A stretch of DNA of 32,879 nucleotides from a virus. How positions within the stretch are numbered: position 1 is the stretch's first letter; each line of letters opens with the position of its first letter. The notes under the pieces are model-generated. The model saw nothing but the letters and a program-made list of their open reading frames with translations. It was not told the DNA's origin and made no database searches. This document shows, in pieces, positions 248 to 22,534 of this stretch. The stretch lies in IMG/VR virus record IMGVR_UViG_3300007280_000068, positions 1-32,879 of that record. The stretch is one strand, 5' to 3'. Both the position numbers and the translations under genes were made by a program.

Positions 248-274
248 GCCCTGCCTGTCGCGGGGCTTTTTTTT
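248..274 (+). terminator. intrinsic terminator after the endolysin
   Basis: A 7-bp stem (GCCCTGC 248-254 with GCGGGGC 260-266, one T:G wobble) closes a 5-nt loop and is followed directly by eight T residues (267-274). This is a textbook Rho-independent terminator. It separates the late lysis gene from the first early promoter, whose -35 box begins 22 bp further on. Confidence 0.93.
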
Positions 275-283
275 ACATATTAA

Positions 284-348
284 TTAACAAAAGTGTTGAC
301 TCTGCCTTTGAGAGGGTGTACTGTAGCACCTCAATCAATCAAAAAAGG
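284..348 (+). promoter_or_regulatory. early promoter/leader module, copy 1
   Basis: Order: TTAACAAA box (284-291), 4-bp gap, -35 TTGACT (296-301), 17-bp spacer, -10 TACTGT (319-324), then a 24-nt leader containing CCTCAATCAATC and ending in an AAAAAAGG ribosome-binding stretch (to 348). Copies 2 and 3 (1136-1200, 7588-7652) have the same elements at the same offsets over exactly 65 bp. The arrangement matches a sigma70-type promoter. The shared upstream box and leader suggest common phage control. Confidence 0.85.
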
Positions 349-358
349 TAATAAACGT

Positions 359-670
359 ATGACAGACTTTAACTACAGTGAGTATTCAATCGAGGTTCTT
401 GAGAACGCTATTCAGAATGCTAAAGATGCAATCAAAAGAATTGAATCTACCGCGAAGCGTTACAACCGCAATCTTACCTTGCACAACGGCAGGGGCTATT
501 CAAATGAAAAGAAGGCGTATTTTGAAAGCTACATCAAATATGTGCCTACTTTGATCGCAGGCCGTGAAGCTGAGATTGCAGAGTGCAAGGCAGAGATCGC
601 AAGCAGAGTTTTCGACAGAGAAGTAAGTAAGAAATATTTAAAAGAGTTTTTTGAAGCATTAGGCAAATAA
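359..670 (+). CDS. early phage protein of unknown function
   Basis: The product is 103 residues and I do not recognise it. It is rich in Lys, Glu and Ala, with long predicted helices (for example ENAIQNAKDAIKRIES and EAEIAECKAEIASR), so a helical bundle or coiled coil is likely. The ATG at 359 is chosen because it sits 10 nt after the AAGG of the leader. An upstream in-frame GTG at 293 would lie before the promoter -35 box. It is the first gene behind promoter copy 1 and is followed by a GC hairpin and then the gene at 712, probably on one transcript. It is probably expressed immediately after infection, by analogy with other phage first genes. Confidence 0.75.
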   Translation: MTDFNYSEYSIEVLENAIQNAKDAIKRIESTAKRYNRNLTLHNGRGYSNEKKAYFESYIKYVPTLIAGREAEIAECKAEIASRVFDREVSKKYLKEFFEALGK

Positions 671-677
671 TCTAACC

Positions 678-693
678 GCCCCCGCGAGGGGGC
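678..693 (+). other. GC hairpin with GCGA (GNRA) tetraloop, no U-tract
   Basis: GCCCCC (678-683) and GGGGGC (688-693) form a perfect 6-bp stem closed by GCGA, a GNRA tetraloop. The sequence downstream is AACTAAG, so it is not a normal intrinsic terminator. The same hairpin, with the same AACC 5' flank, is found at 1439-1454. A variant lies at 8300-8315. Each follows the first gene behind an early promoter module. Confidence 0.75.
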
Positions 694-711: not shown

Positions 712-1080
712 ATGGCTAAATTAGTAATCAATACTCAGTTGCAAGAAAACTACGGGGCGCACACTTGGTTGGGTGATGGCGAATGTCCGCAATACTGGAA
801 GTTCAAGGGCGGTAATACATACGTTATGGAAAACCTTTCTGACGCTTGCGTTAAAAGAATCCTAGAGAACGGTATTCCTACGCTTGATAAAATCATTACA
901 AAGCGCGATGACTACTGGGCAGAATATATTCTAGATTGGTCAATACAAGATGATGACAAGGTGGTCTGTGAAGAATGGGAGTCGCCTTGTCTTTTAGAGT
1001 TCACCGATGGTAAGTGGATGTTTGAATATACAAACCACTGGGGCAGAACCAGTAAATTCGAACTGGGTACTACCATCTAA
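712..1080 (+). CDS. conserved early phage protein of unknown function
   Basis: The product is 122 residues, acidic and rich in Trp and Tyr. It opens with LVINTQLQENYGAH and continues with ECPQYWKFKGGNTYV. I recall similar small proteins in other aquatic phages but know no function for them. The start is fixed by AAGGGGAAATAAAA just before ATG 712. It is the second gene of the first early unit and is followed after 22 bp by a strong terminator. There is no signal peptide or membrane segment. The high aromatic content suggests a compact beta-rich fold, which is only an impression. Confidence 0.78.
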   Translation: MAKLVINTQLQENYGAHTWLGDGECPQYWKFKGGNTYVMENLSDACVKRILENGIPTLDKIITKRDDYWAEYILDWSIQDDDKVVCEEWESPCLLEFTDGKWMFEYTNHWGRTSKFELGTTI

Positions 1081-1102: not shown

Positions 1103-1126
1103 GCCCCTTAACAGGGGCTTTTTTTT
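1103..1126 (+). terminator. intrinsic terminator ending early unit 1
   Basis: GCCCCT (1103-1108) pairs with AGGGGC (1113-1118) around a TAAC loop, followed by eight T residues (1119-1126). It is a strong Rho-independent terminator placed 22 bp after the previous stop codon and 10 bp before promoter copy 2. Confidence 0.92.
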
Positions 1127-1135
1127 GCCTATTAA

Positions 1136-1200
1136 TAAACAGAAGTGTTGACAATAGGGTTGAGATAGCCTAGTATCTAACTTCAATCAATTAATAAAGG
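1136..1200 (+). promoter_or_regulatory. early promoter/leader module, copy 2
   Basis: Order: TAAACAGA box (1136-1143), 4-bp gap, -35 TTGACA (1148-1153, perfect consensus), 17-bp spacer, -10 TAGTAT (1171-1176), and a 24-nt leader with TTCAATCAATTAATAAAGG ending at 1200. Every element is at the same offset as in copies 1 and 3. Confidence 0.88.
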
Positions 1201-1209
1201 CGAAACAAA

Positions 1210-1431
1210 ATGACAACACTTACCATGAAAGAAGTTAAAGAGTTTTTAGACAACAATCCTACCTTTATGGATATGGATAAAAAAATAAAAATTGTTGAGC
1301 AGTCACAACTTCCTGAACAGGAAAAAAAGCAAGTGTTATTGCGATTAGCGTGGGATCGCGCAGAACGCAGAGATTACTTCAAAGCATACAAAGAGTTGCA
1401 AAAAAGAAATAGAGAAGTTTTTGCCAAGTAA
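1210..1431 (+). CDS. small charged early protein, unknown
   Basis: The product is 73 residues with a very high content of Lys, Glu, Arg and Gln, predicted almost entirely helical. I recognise no family. The start ATG 1210 follows the AAAGG of the leader by 9 nt. As the first gene behind promoter copy 2, it heads the unit that carries the recombination genes. Its 3' end is followed by the second copy of the GNRA hairpin. Small charged first genes like this often modify host proteins in other phages, but nothing in this sequence shows that here. Confidence 0.72.
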   Translation: MTTLTMKEVKEFLDNNPTFMDMDKKIKIVEQSQLPEQEKKQVLLRLAWDRAERRDYFKAYKELQKRNREVFAK

Positions 1432-1438
1432 TTTAACC

Positions 1439-1454
1439 GCCCCCGCGAGGGGGC
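1439..1454 (+). other. GC hairpin with GCGA tetraloop, second copy
   Basis: GCCCCC-GCGA-GGGGGC is identical to 678-693 and shares the AACC 5' flank. It is followed by ATTTGCTGTAGGAGG, so there is no U-tract. It sits between the stop codon at 1431 and the strong ribosome-binding site of the next gene. A role in mRNA end protection or differential expression of the two flanking genes is inferred. Confidence 0.75.
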
Positions 1455-3164: not shown

Positions 3165-3374
3165 ATGGAAAAGATACACGCAGGAGACTGCCTAAAAACA
3201 GCACAGAAGGCCAAATCTGTAAACAGTAGGCAACTGGCAAAGATTACTGGAACATCGCCTCAACAGGTATTAAGGTGGCGATCCAATGCCAATATGAAGC
3301 TACATACCATGCAATTAATATGCTTGGCTTTGGATATAAGCATTCAGGATTTTATAACATTTAGTTATAAGTAG
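3165..3374 (+). CDS. small XRE-type helix-turn-helix regulator
   Basis: The 69-residue product has a helix-turn-helix of the Cro/C1 type: SRQLAKITGTSPQQVLRW (near residues 21-38) followed by a third helix and the typical LICLALDISIQDFI tail. The size suits a Cro-like protein with no peptidase or oligomerisation domain, so it is not a full lysogeny repressor. ATG 3165 has AGGA about 10 nt upstream. It stands alone between the recombination set and a 360-bp gap carrying repeated TAAACAAA boxes. It is a candidate for binding the similar boxes at the three early promoters (inference). Confidence 0.8.
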   Translation: MEKIHAGDCLKTAQKAKSVNSRQLAKITGTSPQQVLRWRSNANMKLHTMQLICLALDISIQDFITFSYK

Positions 3375-3662
3375 ACTTTTAAGTTTACTTTGTAGGTTTA
3401 ATATTTTAAGGTTTAAAAAGTATTCGGGTGTTTGGATTGGGAATTTGTAACCCAATATCGAGAGTGACCCCTCTATCAGCACCTTTTGTTTAGTTTGACT
3501 GCTGAACAAAAAACAACGATTAATGCGTCTAGGCGCAAGGGCAACGGAACTGCTACTGATTCTAAATACGAATACGATTAAGTCACTAAGTCGCTGTAAG
3601 CCCTTAGATTTGTAAATTATGCTTTGTTAGGTGTAAAGGGTTGGATCATCTTGAAGAAAGTT

Positions 3663-3700: not shown

Positions 3701-3720
3701 TGGTGAGGCTTGCCGAACCA
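3701..3720 (+). promoter_or_regulatory. leader hairpin with tandem G.A pairs and CUUG loop
   Basis: Read as RNA, TGGT pairs with ACCA, then the two strands oppose GA with GA (tandem sheared G.A possible). GG then pairs with CC, closed by CTTG, a known stable tetraloop. The 20-nt element is fully symmetric and ends directly at the TAGGAG ribosome-binding site of the gene at 3735. It could be a protein- or RNA-binding leader element controlling that gene. Confidence 0.45.
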
Positions 3721-3734
3721 TAGGAGTAAAGAGA

Positions 3735-4025
3735 ATGAATATAAGTCATAAGGAGGTTGCTGATCTTGTTGGCATGAATGAACAAGAATTCATCAACTGG
3801 ACTCAACAGTTTAAATCTACATTCATTGAATACGTTGACCATAATGGAAACACGGGTGTTGTATACACTGATGGCGATGATGGTTTTATGCTTTTTGAGA
3901 ATGAGTGCGATATTTTTGAAAGCGAAGGCACTAGGGTAACAATAGGTGGCCGTTACTGTGATATTGATTATTCTTCAATGACAAAAATTATTTCTATATT
4001 GTTAGAACAGGAGGCAGTGCAATGA
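3735..4025 (+). CDS. acidic phage protein of unknown function
   Basis: The product is 96 residues and strongly acidic, with a central YTDGDDGFMLFENECDIFESEG stretch. The N-terminal ISHKEVADLVGMNEQEFINW could form a degenerate helix-turn-helix, but this is weak. The start is set by TAGGAG 8 nt before ATG 3735. It is the first gene of the replication block and overlaps the next gene by 4 bp (ATGA at 4022). Its upstream leader contains the symmetric hairpin at 3701-3720. The acidic surface is compatible with a DNA mimic or a protein-binding role, but no function is assigned. Confidence 0.7.
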   Translation: MNISHKEVADLVGMNEQEFINWTQQFKSTFIEYVDHNGNTGVVYTDGDDGFMLFENECDIFESEGTRVTIGGRYCDIDYSSMTKIISILLEQEAVQ

Positions 4026-5509: not shown

Positions 5510-6676
5510 ATGGATAAGATTGATCCTAGAGTGCTGAAAGATTTTGCAACTACAGATAGGCATCACGAAGTATTAGATGCGGTCATTAGGGAAGGGTCAG
5601 CAAATAAGGCGGCCAAGTATCTGGGTTGCGGTAGGCGAGTTGTTGACAAGATGCTTGCTAGGTTAGAAAAGAAGGCGGCAAGTCAGGGCGTATCACCGCA
5701 CAGAGATTTGGTTCACCAGACCGCAGAAGGATTTGAAGCCAAGCGAATATCTACCGCATACAAAGATGATGGATCAGTCGCCCTACAGTGGGTTATTCAA
5801 GAGCCAGAAAAGCGCGATATAAGGGCAAAAGTAGAGGCTGTAGTTGATGGCCTTACTGATGAGCTAAAGGGATTAAAAAAGGCTGTAAAAGCCCCTGCAA
5901 AGGTAAATTCTGACTATCTAGCGATGTATATGGTAGGTGACCACCATTTCGGAATGTTGGCTGATTCTGAAACTAAAATGGATGACGATGACTGGGATGT
6001 AAAGATAGCCACCCAAATTCTAATAGATGCAACTGAAAGATTATCCAAGCGAGTAGGCGATGCAGAGATTGGTGTTTTGCTTAACGTAGGCGACTTCTTT
6101 CATGCCGATTCAAGCAAGAACGAAACAACAGCAGGAACTAGGGTTGATGTAGATACCCGTATAGGCAAGACGTTCAAACTGGCGGGTCGGTTATTTCAGA
6201 TTCTTATTGATAAGATGCTAGAGAGCCATAAGGAGGTGGTTGTGATTAACGTGCGCGGCAACCATGACTCTGACATGGCGTGTCATCTATCCAGTTGCAT
6301 TGATCTGCTGTACAGTGATGAAAAGCGGGTAAGCGTACTGCCTAATTACTCCAAGTTTATACATTATCAATGGCACAACAATCTGTTTGTATTCCATCAT
6401 GGTGATAGAATAAAGCCAGAGCAGATTCTGCAAGCGGTCATTAAAAATCTTGATGATGAATGGGCGCAGAGTAAAAACCGCTATTGCCATATGGGGCATA
6501 TTCACCACCATGTCGAGCGCGAATATGGAAGTATGCTATTTTCTGCGTGGGGGTCACTAACTTCTACAGACCAATGGCATTCAGATTCGGGATTTGGATC
6601 AGAGAGATCAATGAGTGCTGTTGTCTACCATAAAGATAGCGGTGAAGATTCACGGGTTAAAATAAAGGTTGGATGA
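5510..6676 (+). CDS. HTH-metallophosphoesterase fusion, SbcD-like
   Basis: The 388-residue product has an N-terminal helix-turn-helix (GSANKAAKYLGCGRRVVDKMLARLE, near residues 28-52) and a calcineurin-like phosphoesterase domain. The metal-site motifs are all in order: GDHH (D144), GDFFHAD (D195), GNHD (N251, H252), HGD (H297) and GHIHHH (H330, H332). Such proteins occur widely in phage replication regions. A nuclease or phosphodiesterase acting on DNA is the usual interpretation, and the exact substrate is unknown. It starts one base after the ninB stop and overlaps the zinc-ribbon gene by 4 bp. Confidence 0.85.
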   Translation: MDKIDPRVLKDFATTDRHHEVLDAVIREGSANKAAKYLGCGRRVVDKMLARLEKKAASQGVSPHRDLVHQTAEGFEAKRISTAYKDDGSVALQWVIQEPEKRDIRAKVEAVVDGLTDELKGLKKAVKAPAKVNSDYLAMYMVGDHHFGMLADSETKMDDDDWDVKIATQILIDATERLSKRVGDAEIGVLLNVGDFFHADSSKNETTAGTRVDVDTRIGKTFKLAGRLFQILIDKMLESHKEVVVINVRGNHDSDMACHLSSCIDLLYSDEKRVSVLPNYSKFIHYQWHNNLFVFHHGDRIKPEQILQAVIKNLDDEWAQSKNRYCHMGHIHHHVEREYGSMLFSAWGSLTSTDQWHSDSGFGSERSMSAVVYHKDSGEDSRVKIKVG

Positions 6677-7587: not shown

Positions 7588-7652
7588 TTAACAAAACCGT
7601 TGACTATACTGTGTATTTGGCCTATAGTTACACCTCAATCAATTAATAAAGG
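7588..7652 (+). promoter_or_regulatory. early promoter/leader module, copy 3
   Basis: Order: TTAACAAA box (7588-7595), 4-bp gap, -35 TTGACT (7600-7605), 17-bp spacer, -10 TATAGT (7623-7628), and a 24-nt leader containing CCTCAATCAATTAATAAAGG. The elements and their offsets match copies 1 and 2 exactly. Only the leader and the box are conserved beyond promoter consensus. Confidence 0.9.
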
Positions 7653-7662
7653 AAATACAGAT

Positions 7663-8292
7663 ATGCCAATTAAATCAATAGATCAGCGTATTCAAGAAGT
7701 GCAATCAGCACTGGCGCAGGGGTTCACGTCTAAATCAGGCAAGAAAGATACTATGTACAGCTTGTCTTGCGTTTTTGATAAAGTTAAAGATGTTCTTAAA
7801 AATGCTGTATGGGATGTAGAGCGATCTACAGGGGAGCGCATCGAAGATTCTTTCAACATTATTTGCAAGCAGTTGCACCACTTCAAGGTTGAGCATATTG
7901 AGTTTTTTGCTCAGTACAACAGCCACAACCAAAAAGCGATCAGCGACTTGTACAAGGTTCTTGATCTGCGCGATCAAATCAAATCGGCTGAGATTGGCGT
8001 TAAAGAAAAATCAGCTACTCAGTTGATGCTTGAAGAAGAAATTAAAATGGTCAAGGCTGTGAAAGATAACGGCTTCCGCACTAACAACCATGTATGGACT
8101 CAATTCTGGGATTGTGAGAATGAGTTCGGTACACAGTGGGAACGATGCGATTGGTACTTAGATGGCAGACGCACAGCGTTCAACAAGTGCATGGCCGTGG
8201 TAGGCAAGGATTATAGATTCTGGACTGCCAAAGGTTGCCCAAACATGAAGGGTTGGGATTTTTCAAAAATCGCTGAGTTTTACAACAGCTAA
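7663..8292 (+). CDS. early phage protein of unknown function
   Basis: The 209-residue product has no family I recognise. It has a helical N-terminal half with basic patches and a C-terminal Trp/Cys-rich segment (WTQFWDCENEFGTQWERCDWYLDGRR). ATG 7663 follows the AAAGG of the leader by 10 nt. An in-frame start at 7600 would lie inside the promoter and is rejected. As first gene behind promoter copy 3 and the largest early unknown, it is a good candidate for host takeover, although no motif proves this. The third GC hairpin follows its stop codon. Confidence 0.75.
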   Translation: MPIKSIDQRIQEVQSALAQGFTSKSGKKDTMYSLSCVFDKVKDVLKNAVWDVERSTGERIEDSFNIICKQLHHFKVEHIEFFAQYNSHNQKAISDLYKVLDLRDQIKSAEIGVKEKSATQLMLEEEIKMVKAVKDNGFRTNNHVWTQFWDCENEFGTQWERCDWYLDGRRTAFNKCMAVVGKDYRFWTAKGCPNMKGWDFSKIAEFYNS

Positions 8293-8299
8293 CTTAACC

Positions 8300-8315
8300 G
8301 CCCCCTACGGGGGGC
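8300..8315 (+). other. GC hairpin with TACG (UNCG) tetraloop
   Basis: GCCCCC (8300-8305) and GGGGGC (8310-8315) close TACG, a UNCG-type tetraloop with the favourable C-G closing pair. The 5' flank TTAACC matches the copies at 678 and 1439, where the loop is GCGA. No U-tract follows. The preserved stem with a swap between two stable tetraloop classes suggests that the RNA fold, not the sequence, is selected. Confidence 0.75.
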
Positions 8316-22078: not shown

Positions 22079-22534
22079 ATGATAACGATACAGCATGAAA
22101 GTCTGTTAAATGTTAAAGAAGATATAAAGCCGCTACTTGAAGAACATTGGCGGCTTGTTGCGTTAAATCAGGGTAAGATAAAATTAAATCCTGATTGGAA
22201 AGAATATTCTAGGTTATATACGGCAGGGATATTAAAGATATTTACTGCGCGGGATGATGGTGAGTTAGTTGGTTACTTTGTTTTGATAATCAATAAAAGC
22301 ATCCATTATCAAGATCACTACTTTGCAGTTAATGATGTTGTATTTGTTTTGCCTGATAGCAGGGCGGGTGCAACTGGTTACAAATTAATCAAGTATGCAG
22401 AAGATTATTGTCGAGAATCTGGCGTTTCTTTGATGATGATAAATACAAAGGTACACATTCCCTTTGATAAACTTATGGTAGGCATGGGCTTTGATTTAAT
22501 AGAGCGCGTCTATTCCAAATTTTTAGGAAAGTAA
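22079..22534 (+). CDS. GNAT-family N-acetyltransferase in the tail-tip cassette
   Basis: The 151-residue product has the GNAT order. LNPDWKEYSRLYTAG near the N-terminus is followed by a beta hairpin FTARDDGELVGYFVLII. SRAGATGYKLIKYAEDYCRESG is the acetyl-CoA binding loop and helix (R/Q-x-x-G-x-G/A region), and a GMGFDLIERVYSKFL end completes it. Similar enzymes are carried by other phages. It sits between the hub gene and the J-like gene, where lambda-type tails have an NlpC/P60 peptidase, which is absent here. The substrate is unknown. Confidence 0.8.
   Translation: MITIQHESLLNVKEDIKPLLEEHWRLVALNQGKIKLNPDWKEYSRLYTAGILKIFTARDDGELVGYFVLIINKSIHYQDHYFAVNDVVFVLPDSRAGATGYKLIKYAEDYCRESGVSLMMINTKVHIPFDKLMVGMGFDLIERVYSKFLGK

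Follow-up and report, generated by a model that had tools for sequence, protein, structure and literature searches.

The stretch of DNA analysed here (the window) covers an IMG/VR virus record in full, 32,879 bp. Its head, tail and lysis genes include those for the small and large terminase, portal, major head protein, tape measure, a central-tail-fibre-like protein and holin, and Erf-, NinB- and NinG-like recombination proteins are also encoded. The portal is 48-52% identical to those of the pelagiphages HTVC026P, 111P, 112P and 202P, and megablast against 50,697 phage records gave no match to known phage DNA. The source phage has a small siphovirus-type genome and belongs to a lineage other than T4; the carrier of the module described below is an uncultivated marine tailed phage family. 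No phage RNA polymerase, sigma factor or Alt-like ADP-ribosyltransferase was recognised among the window proteins scanned. A tRNA/tmRNA scan of the window found none, and an Rfam search of it, leader included, matched no curated RNA family. A GNAT-type acetyltransferase gene (Pfam Acetyltransf_1) lies among the tail genes at 22079-22534, and an acyltransferase gene of pelagiphages is found at a similar place.

Three predicted promoter modules and the units they head

An earlier note on this DNA had claimed three ungapped 65-bp promoter copies, at 284, 1136 and 7588. By direct alignment their positions and register proved exact, and the sub-elements are those described: a T(T/A)AACA(A/G)A box, a 4-bp gap, TTGAC(T/A), a 17-bp spacer, a -10 box and a 24-nt leader with C(C/T)TCAATCAAT. 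The modules and the features around them, the terminators being taken from a terminator scan, are as follows.

248-274 (+): intrinsic terminator, with the scan hit at 248-266, adjoining copy 1 on its upstream side
284-348 (+): module copy 1, with box at 284-291, -35 TTGACT at 296-301 and -10 TACTGT at 319-324
331-339 (+): leader TCAATCAAT of copy 1, followed by SD-like AAAGG to 348
359-670 (+): first gene behind copy 1, 103 aa, no family match
678-693 (+): hairpin GCCCCC-GCGA-GGGGGC, placed between the first gene of unit 1, which it closes, and the RBS of gene 712-1080
712-1080 (+): second gene of unit 1, 122 aa, no family match
1103-1126 (+): intrinsic terminator, with the scan hit at 1103-1118, closing unit 1 and adjoining copy 2 upstream
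1136-1200 (+): module copy 2, with box at 1136-1143, -35 TTGACA at 1148-1153 and -10 TAGTAT at 1171-1176
1183-1191 (+): leader TCAATCAAT of copy 2, followed by an SD-like sequence to 1200
1210-1431 (+): first gene behind copy 2, 73 aa, no convincing family match
1439-1454 (+): hairpin GCCCCC-GCGA-GGGGGC, closing the first gene of unit 2
7588-7652 (+): module copy 3, with box at 7588-7595, -35 TTGACT at 7600-7605 and -10 TATAGT at 7623-7628
7635-7643 (+): leader TCAATCAAT of copy 3, followed by an SD-like sequence to 7652
7663-8292 (+): first gene behind copy 3, 209 aa, PHROG 8776 (unknown function)
8300-8315 (+): hairpin GCCCCC-TACG-GGGGGC, closing the first gene of unit 3

The three modules are the top direct-repeat family of the window, with 38 of 65 columns invariant and pairwise identities of 45-46/65. 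When a profile was built with one copy left out and run over both strands of the window, the held-out copy scored 44-46 bits and the best other site 14-17, and chance similarity of the three copies was rejected on these scores. The GC hairpins found after each first gene (GCCCCC-GCGA/TACG-GGGGGC) form another direct-repeat family of the window, D2; upstream of copy 3 the terminator scan found no intrinsic terminator. The D2 hairpins and the upstream terminators make the repeated unit larger than the earlier note described: it consists of (terminator), promoter with leader, small gene, hairpin and next RBS.

Relatives were first gathered through the metallophosphoesterase gene at 5510-6676, which gave 80 viral loci, and this set was enlarged by two pattern scans to 256 related IMG/VR loci. 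In the 80 metallophosphoesterase-anchored loci TCAATCAAT stands at a fixed place after a promoter, and an iterated 65-column profile found 107 sites there, with none above 10 bits in reversed sequence. A profile search of relatives, as the earlier note had proposed, yielded 238 copies in the 256 loci; the contigs compared are related and not independent, and the 238 sites make up 150 distinct contexts, 147 of them with an ORF of at least 30 aa. Only one to three modules were seen per locus. They lie in two regions, slots 1 and 2 being upstream of erf and slot 3 downstream of ninG; a few have other locations, and an inverted erf block places modules on the opposite strand. Such an inversion of the erf-exonuclease-HTH block relative to the metallophosphoesterase gene was seen in L046, L051, L052, L055 and L056, which have modules on both strands.

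The family consensus is TWAACAAAANGGTTTACWTT, a variable spacer, a TATAAT-like hexamer, TNNACC and TCAATCAATNAANAAAGG. Position -33 is T in 70 of 77 non-redundant copies and G in 7; the window copies, with GTTGAC, carry the minority form. Most copies, those of the window included, have the box TWAACAAAA at -47 to -39, and it is weak (at most 5/9 matches) in 30 of 147. Random sequence in place of box or leader was looked for in the relatives, and neither the leader nor the -35 region proved random.

Among five isolates with an approximately 50% identical portal (HTVC026P, 111P, 112P, 202P and DSL-LC06) the module was not found. The core pattern matched 46 times in the genomes of 84,980 bacterial and archaeal species, against about 30 expected by chance (an estimate from its information content). 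These matches were scattered over phyla, none resembled the full module, and all but one scored below 9 bits (best, 19.0); at chance level, scattered and low-scoring as they are, they led us to reject a host-derived promoter. Present in related viral contigs and at chance level in prokaryotes, the conserved parts do, as had been claimed, go beyond a generic sigma-70 consensus and belong to the phage lineage. Judged by this distribution, the module is a lineage-wide element.

The leader and a fourth predicted promoter without it

The leader has the form CCTCAATCAAT...AAAGG, with CCTCAATCAAT NAANAAAGG about 8-9 nt before the ATG. Because leader-based pattern scans are biased towards the leader, its geometry was analysed in the loci found through the protein: where linked to a promoter it begins, with few exceptions, 6 nt behind the -10 hexamer, and the distance to the SD sequence varies. 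From the leader to 15 nt past the start codon the median MFE is 0.0 kcal/mol, compared with -5.0 for random segments. The leader is unstructured and locked to the promoter and, as far as tested, appears to be specific to this lineage. In L092, L104, L105, L127, L174 and L196, TCAATCAAT and AAAGG also occur about 6 nt after a -10-like box, with different upstream sequence that in several cases holds an inverted repeat (TTGTAC...GTACAA-like); in view of these copies, the leader may range wider than the family.

A scan with the promoter part alone gave 91 strong sites (at least 20 bits), 80 of which have the leader. The leaderless ones are mostly in one other place, before a conserved noncoding stretch, and so is one site of the window:

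3372-3412 (+): fourth promoter, alike in type (TAGACTTTTAA-GTTTAC-N18-TAAGGT) but with no TCAATCAAT leader, before a conserved structured RNA

This promoter scored 16.7 bits (columns 1-41), while the best reversed-control site over all loci reached 14.0. The RNA that follows it, at about 3413-3640 of the window, lies right after the HTH gene (3165-3374) and at the start of the operon beginning at 3735. A 5' motif of it is present in 83 of the 97 loci having the HTH gene and enough downstream sequence. The RNA has at least three 5' architectures (types A, B and C); L135, L048, L061, L039 and others are of type A, and the window RNA is a type C variant with the outer helix kept (GTATTCG 3420-3426/CGAATAC 3569-3575). 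In an alignment of 17 type-A relatives (two slightly divergent; type C left out), 98.3% of the cells in 39 pairs are standard pairs and two-sided changes occur in 23 of the 39, the structure having been predicted from the same alignment, which favours the former figure and less so the latter. None of 500 shuffles reached this number of two-sided changes, and slid controls were 34-40% paired. The RNA has no match in Rfam. It may be a cis-acting leader of the 3735 operon or a separate RNA; no clear terminator was seen between it and the operon. Immediately ahead of the RBS of ORF 3735-4025, window positions 3711-3734 read GGTGAGGCTTGCCGAACC, where relatives have GGCGAGGCTTGCCGAGCC; this conserved sequence may fold into a hairpin that has a CUUG loop and in which one pair covaries (U-A/C-G). 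As to the inversion described above, the structured RNA seems to remain on the metallophosphoesterase side, at least in L056 and L060.

Since a promoter of the same type precedes the structured RNA and lacks the leader, the latter would go with short-leader protein-coding transcripts, and it probably serves mRNAs. We favour a role in translation or in the quality of the mRNA 5' end. A variant of the explanation given below, differing from it only in leader function, would have the leader act at transcription initiation, in start-site choice or promoter escape, rather than in translation, as likened to phage promoters with conserved downstream regions. Its phase-locking to the -10 box and its overlap with the expected start site are consistent with such a role, which we regard as possible but somewhat doubtful, as the leaderless promoter of the structured RNA argues against it, and so does the recurrence of CAATCAA, with no promoter there, before second genes behind the slot-3 hairpin (5/35; chance, 14/2940). 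The RBS of these second genes (e.g. in L018, L039, L102, L119 and L242) often carries a promoterless leader-like sequence, CAATCAATCAAGGGG; its window counterpart is CAATTAACCAAGGGG.

Likeness to T4-type early promoters and the question of an operator

The promoter half of the module is made up of an A-rich box at -44 to -39, GTTTAC/GTTGAC at -36 to -31, the 17-bp spacer, a sigma-70 -10 box and a C-rich -2/-1. T4-type early promoters have GTTTAC at -36 to -31, an A-rich stretch at -40 to -44 and C at -3 to -1, with G at -33 in those of RB49, RB43 and Aeh1 (PMC1524935); such promoters are described as being of UP/-35/TGn/-10 design and as very good competitors for host polymerase (PMC2988021). 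GTTTAC/GTTGAC, the A-rich -44 to -40 element and the sigma-70 -10 box are common to the module and to the T4-type phages (T4, RB49, RB43, Aeh1, RB69 and 44RR), as are the C-rich sequence just before +1 and the repetition before small early genes of unknown function (PMC1524935). Unlike the T4 early promoters, the module has no conserved TGn (columns 33-35 gave no consensus for such an extended -10) and has the added TCAATCAAT leader. The family also differs from T4-type phages in its small siphovirus-type genome, in having shown no more than one to three copies per locus and in that no Alt-like protein is among the window proteins scanned.

When columns 1-47 of the family profile were run over the first 50 kb of T4, sites of 25.4, 23.7 and 18.2 bits were found, against 12.1 for the best reversed control, and the top matches were mostly GTTTAC sites that share the strand of the early genes. 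At every T4 site listed the leader columns give a negative score, which argues that the leader is not part of the T4 design. BLAST with the module of a relative matched mainly T4-type Vibrio, Aeromonas and Escherichia phages, at unannotated sites and with E values of 0.02-3; these matches are weak singly and telling only in their concentration. Around two of them a stem-loop is followed by GAACAAAAAGGTTTACA or CACAAAAAGGTTTACA and then ATG, and the match in PE37, which carries CACAAAAAGGTTTAC, lies just upstream of motA, the middle-promoter regulator gene. The elements matched in T4 are short and partly generic to sigma-70 promoters and TGn is absent from the consensus; because of the latter, what we propose is that the module works like a T4-type early promoter, not that it is strictly a member of that class.

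The earlier note read the box as a sign of dedicated control, for example by the following protein.

3165-3374 (+): HTH protein, 69 aa, Cro/C1-type, product of a family core gene, the only candidate regulator identified near the modules

This reading fared less well. The box is absent or weak in about one fifth of the copies, there is little palindromic signal, and its position and sequence are instead those of the T4-type A-rich -44 to -40 element read by the host polymerase. Because of this agreement in both position and sequence, a T4-type UP-like element for the host RNA polymerase is the most likely identity of the box, rather than an operator. It seems unlikely to us that box and -35 form an operator through which the 3165 product or another phage factor times the modules, with the leader under the same control. 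In favour of an operator, the HTH gene is kept in nearly all relatives, TWAAC-N6-GTTKA makes an imperfect inverted repeat around the -35, and the GTTTAC-N6-GTAAAC palindrome over the -35 and spacer is better in copies whose box is poor (Mann-Whitney p 0.007, uncorrected for relatedness). On the other hand, complementarity between the arms barely exceeds that of shuffled pairings (2.94 vs 2.83; 2.81 vs 2.71), the box is weak in the 30 of 147 copies mentioned, it is explained by T4-type promoters, which do not rely on the 3165 protein, and no regulator-like motif fits the leader. With so weak an inverted-repeat signal around the -35, a palindromic operator was rejected. The poor-box modules with GTTTAC-N6-GTAAAC (L009:7021, L023:2972, L039:9987, L101 and similar) are possibly a second subtype.

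Proposed expression slots with replaceable first genes

The first genes behind the modules belong to 56 families, of which 8 occur in both slot groups, slots 1 and 2 being counted together as the upstream-of-erf group; the DYNGWTNRNTW family (Pfam DUF7249) is an example. Genes between leader and hairpin have been replaced. In 85 pairs that differ in gene family but have modules at least 59/65 identical, the upstream flank is 0.62-0.72 identical, the module about 0.95 and the sequence past the start codon 0.26-0.30; how high the module plateau stands, and some of the drop, are built into this selection. At the hairpin 27 of these pairs could be aligned: from about 0.33 ahead of it, identity climbs to 0.93 and then falls to about 0.5 on the far side. 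What is informative in these statistics is that the upstream flank is homologous and that identity returns at the hairpin. Copy 2 and L192 are an example of such replacement: their modules are 62/65 identical, the genes between are unrelated, and from the hairpin at 1439-1454 on identity is 94%. Hairpins were found behind 81 of 145 first genes, compared with 49 of 735 random positions. The homologue of gene 712-1080, the second of unit 1 in the window, is the first gene behind a module in L041 (84% nucleotide identity), and in L222 a family member of gene 359-670 stands behind a different promoter.

Pairs sharing the same gene in different slots are 0.47 identical in their promoter columns, with a baseline of 0.42. 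This near-baseline value lends little support to a promoter travelling with its gene, and it points to a gene that changes behind a resident promoter, unlike a moron. Judged from these comparisons, the first gene is exchangeable while the promoter side stays. A promoter, gene and terminator moving as one unit, as in a moron, were not found, since promoter sharing is near baseline. Lambdoid morons (PMC1524935) resemble the units described here in having a small gene between promoter and stem-loop; they differ in that the promoter of the module is a shared family element in fixed slots, which does not arrive with the gene, and in that the hairpins behind module genes have no U tracts.

A second system to be compared is that of the PeSL (promoter early stem-loop) cassettes of T4-like phages, reportedly treated by Arbiol 2010 and Comeau 2014. 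These cassettes are reported to mediate shuffling in T4-like phages (PMC4503421). As far as that source describes them, they share with copies 1 and 2 a terminator stem-loop and early promoter between variable genes, as well as shuffling of the adjacent genes; UP87 and PE37 have a PeSL-like order and a box and -35 near-identical to those of the module. Compared with the cassettes as described there, an upstream terminator was detected at a minority of the slot-assigned copies, though far above chance (22/125, with 17/56 in the upstream slots and 5/69 in slot 3; chance, 7/735), and in the module the promoter stays in its slot, the gene changes and a second conserved hairpin often lies behind the gene. 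T4 early promoters and PeSL cassettes were already known; the family-specific part is the leader.

We consider it probable that the modules are T4-type strong early promoters with a family-specific leader, marking slots of replaceable first genes. On infection, host RNA polymerase would read the A-rich UP-like box, GTT(T/G)AC, 17-bp spacer and sigma-70 -10 box, and the fused unstructured leader would most likely give the mRNA an open, well-initiated 5' end. Promoter activity, UP-element function and the part of the leader in translation are in this proposal predicted from sequence, and early timing is suggested by the gene content and the likeness to T4. The modules would mark expression slots that are fixed in place: two lie upstream of the erf-like gene, and the third is downstream of the ninG-like gene. 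Over evolutionary time each slot would exchange its first small gene but keep the promoter side and, if there is one, the GC hairpin behind the gene. Recombination may use the conserved edges formed by leader and hairpin.

The last point could be taken further, the module being then chiefly a DNA exchange site whose leader and hairpin are kept as short recombination homologies, with the promoter a passenger. The swapping of genes between these two elements, the Erf-, NinB- and NinG-like recombination proteins of the phage, the shuffling reported for PeSL cassettes (PMC4503421, as far as described there) and the finding that L004 and L005, behind different promoters, have a related gene with an identical post-leader string would all agree with this. 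We nevertheless find it quite improbable, as conservation follows transcription geometry, fixed to the -10 box and variable to the SD sequence, which a homology arm does not need; promoters do not travel with the genes, as seen in the same-gene pairs; and the same promoter type heads an RNA gene with no known exchange role. That these are ordinary sigma-70 promoters, alike by chance or recent duplication, is barely credible: their -35 and -10 boxes are close to consensus and a simple promoter scan shows no excess in the region, but the leave-one-out scores (44-46 against at most 17 bits) and the box, leader and geometry kept across diverged relatives speak against it.

Under the reading that we prefer, that of strong early promoters marking slots, a T4-style early promoter design, with gene shuffling behind it, would be present in a marine phage lineage that is unrelated and uncultivated. 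By way of the fourth promoter a structured RNA with strong covariation and no counterpart in Rfam was found, and the short tag GTTKAC-N-TCAATCAAT points to the 56 families of small, mostly unknown early genes. In archaeal viruses, conserved early regulatory sequences precede anti-defence genes, and a comparable approach through regulatory sequences yielded such genes (PMC11065993). There, as here, a conserved promoter stands before varying small early genes; the promoters of that system differ in being archaeal, and any anti-defence role of the module genes is putative. We would suggest, tentatively, that module and hairpin are true expression slots in an abundant marine family, into which the recombination system swaps small genes for host takeover or anti-defence. 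If so, the module sequence would be a bait with which host-takeover and anti-defence genes may be read out directly from metagenomes.
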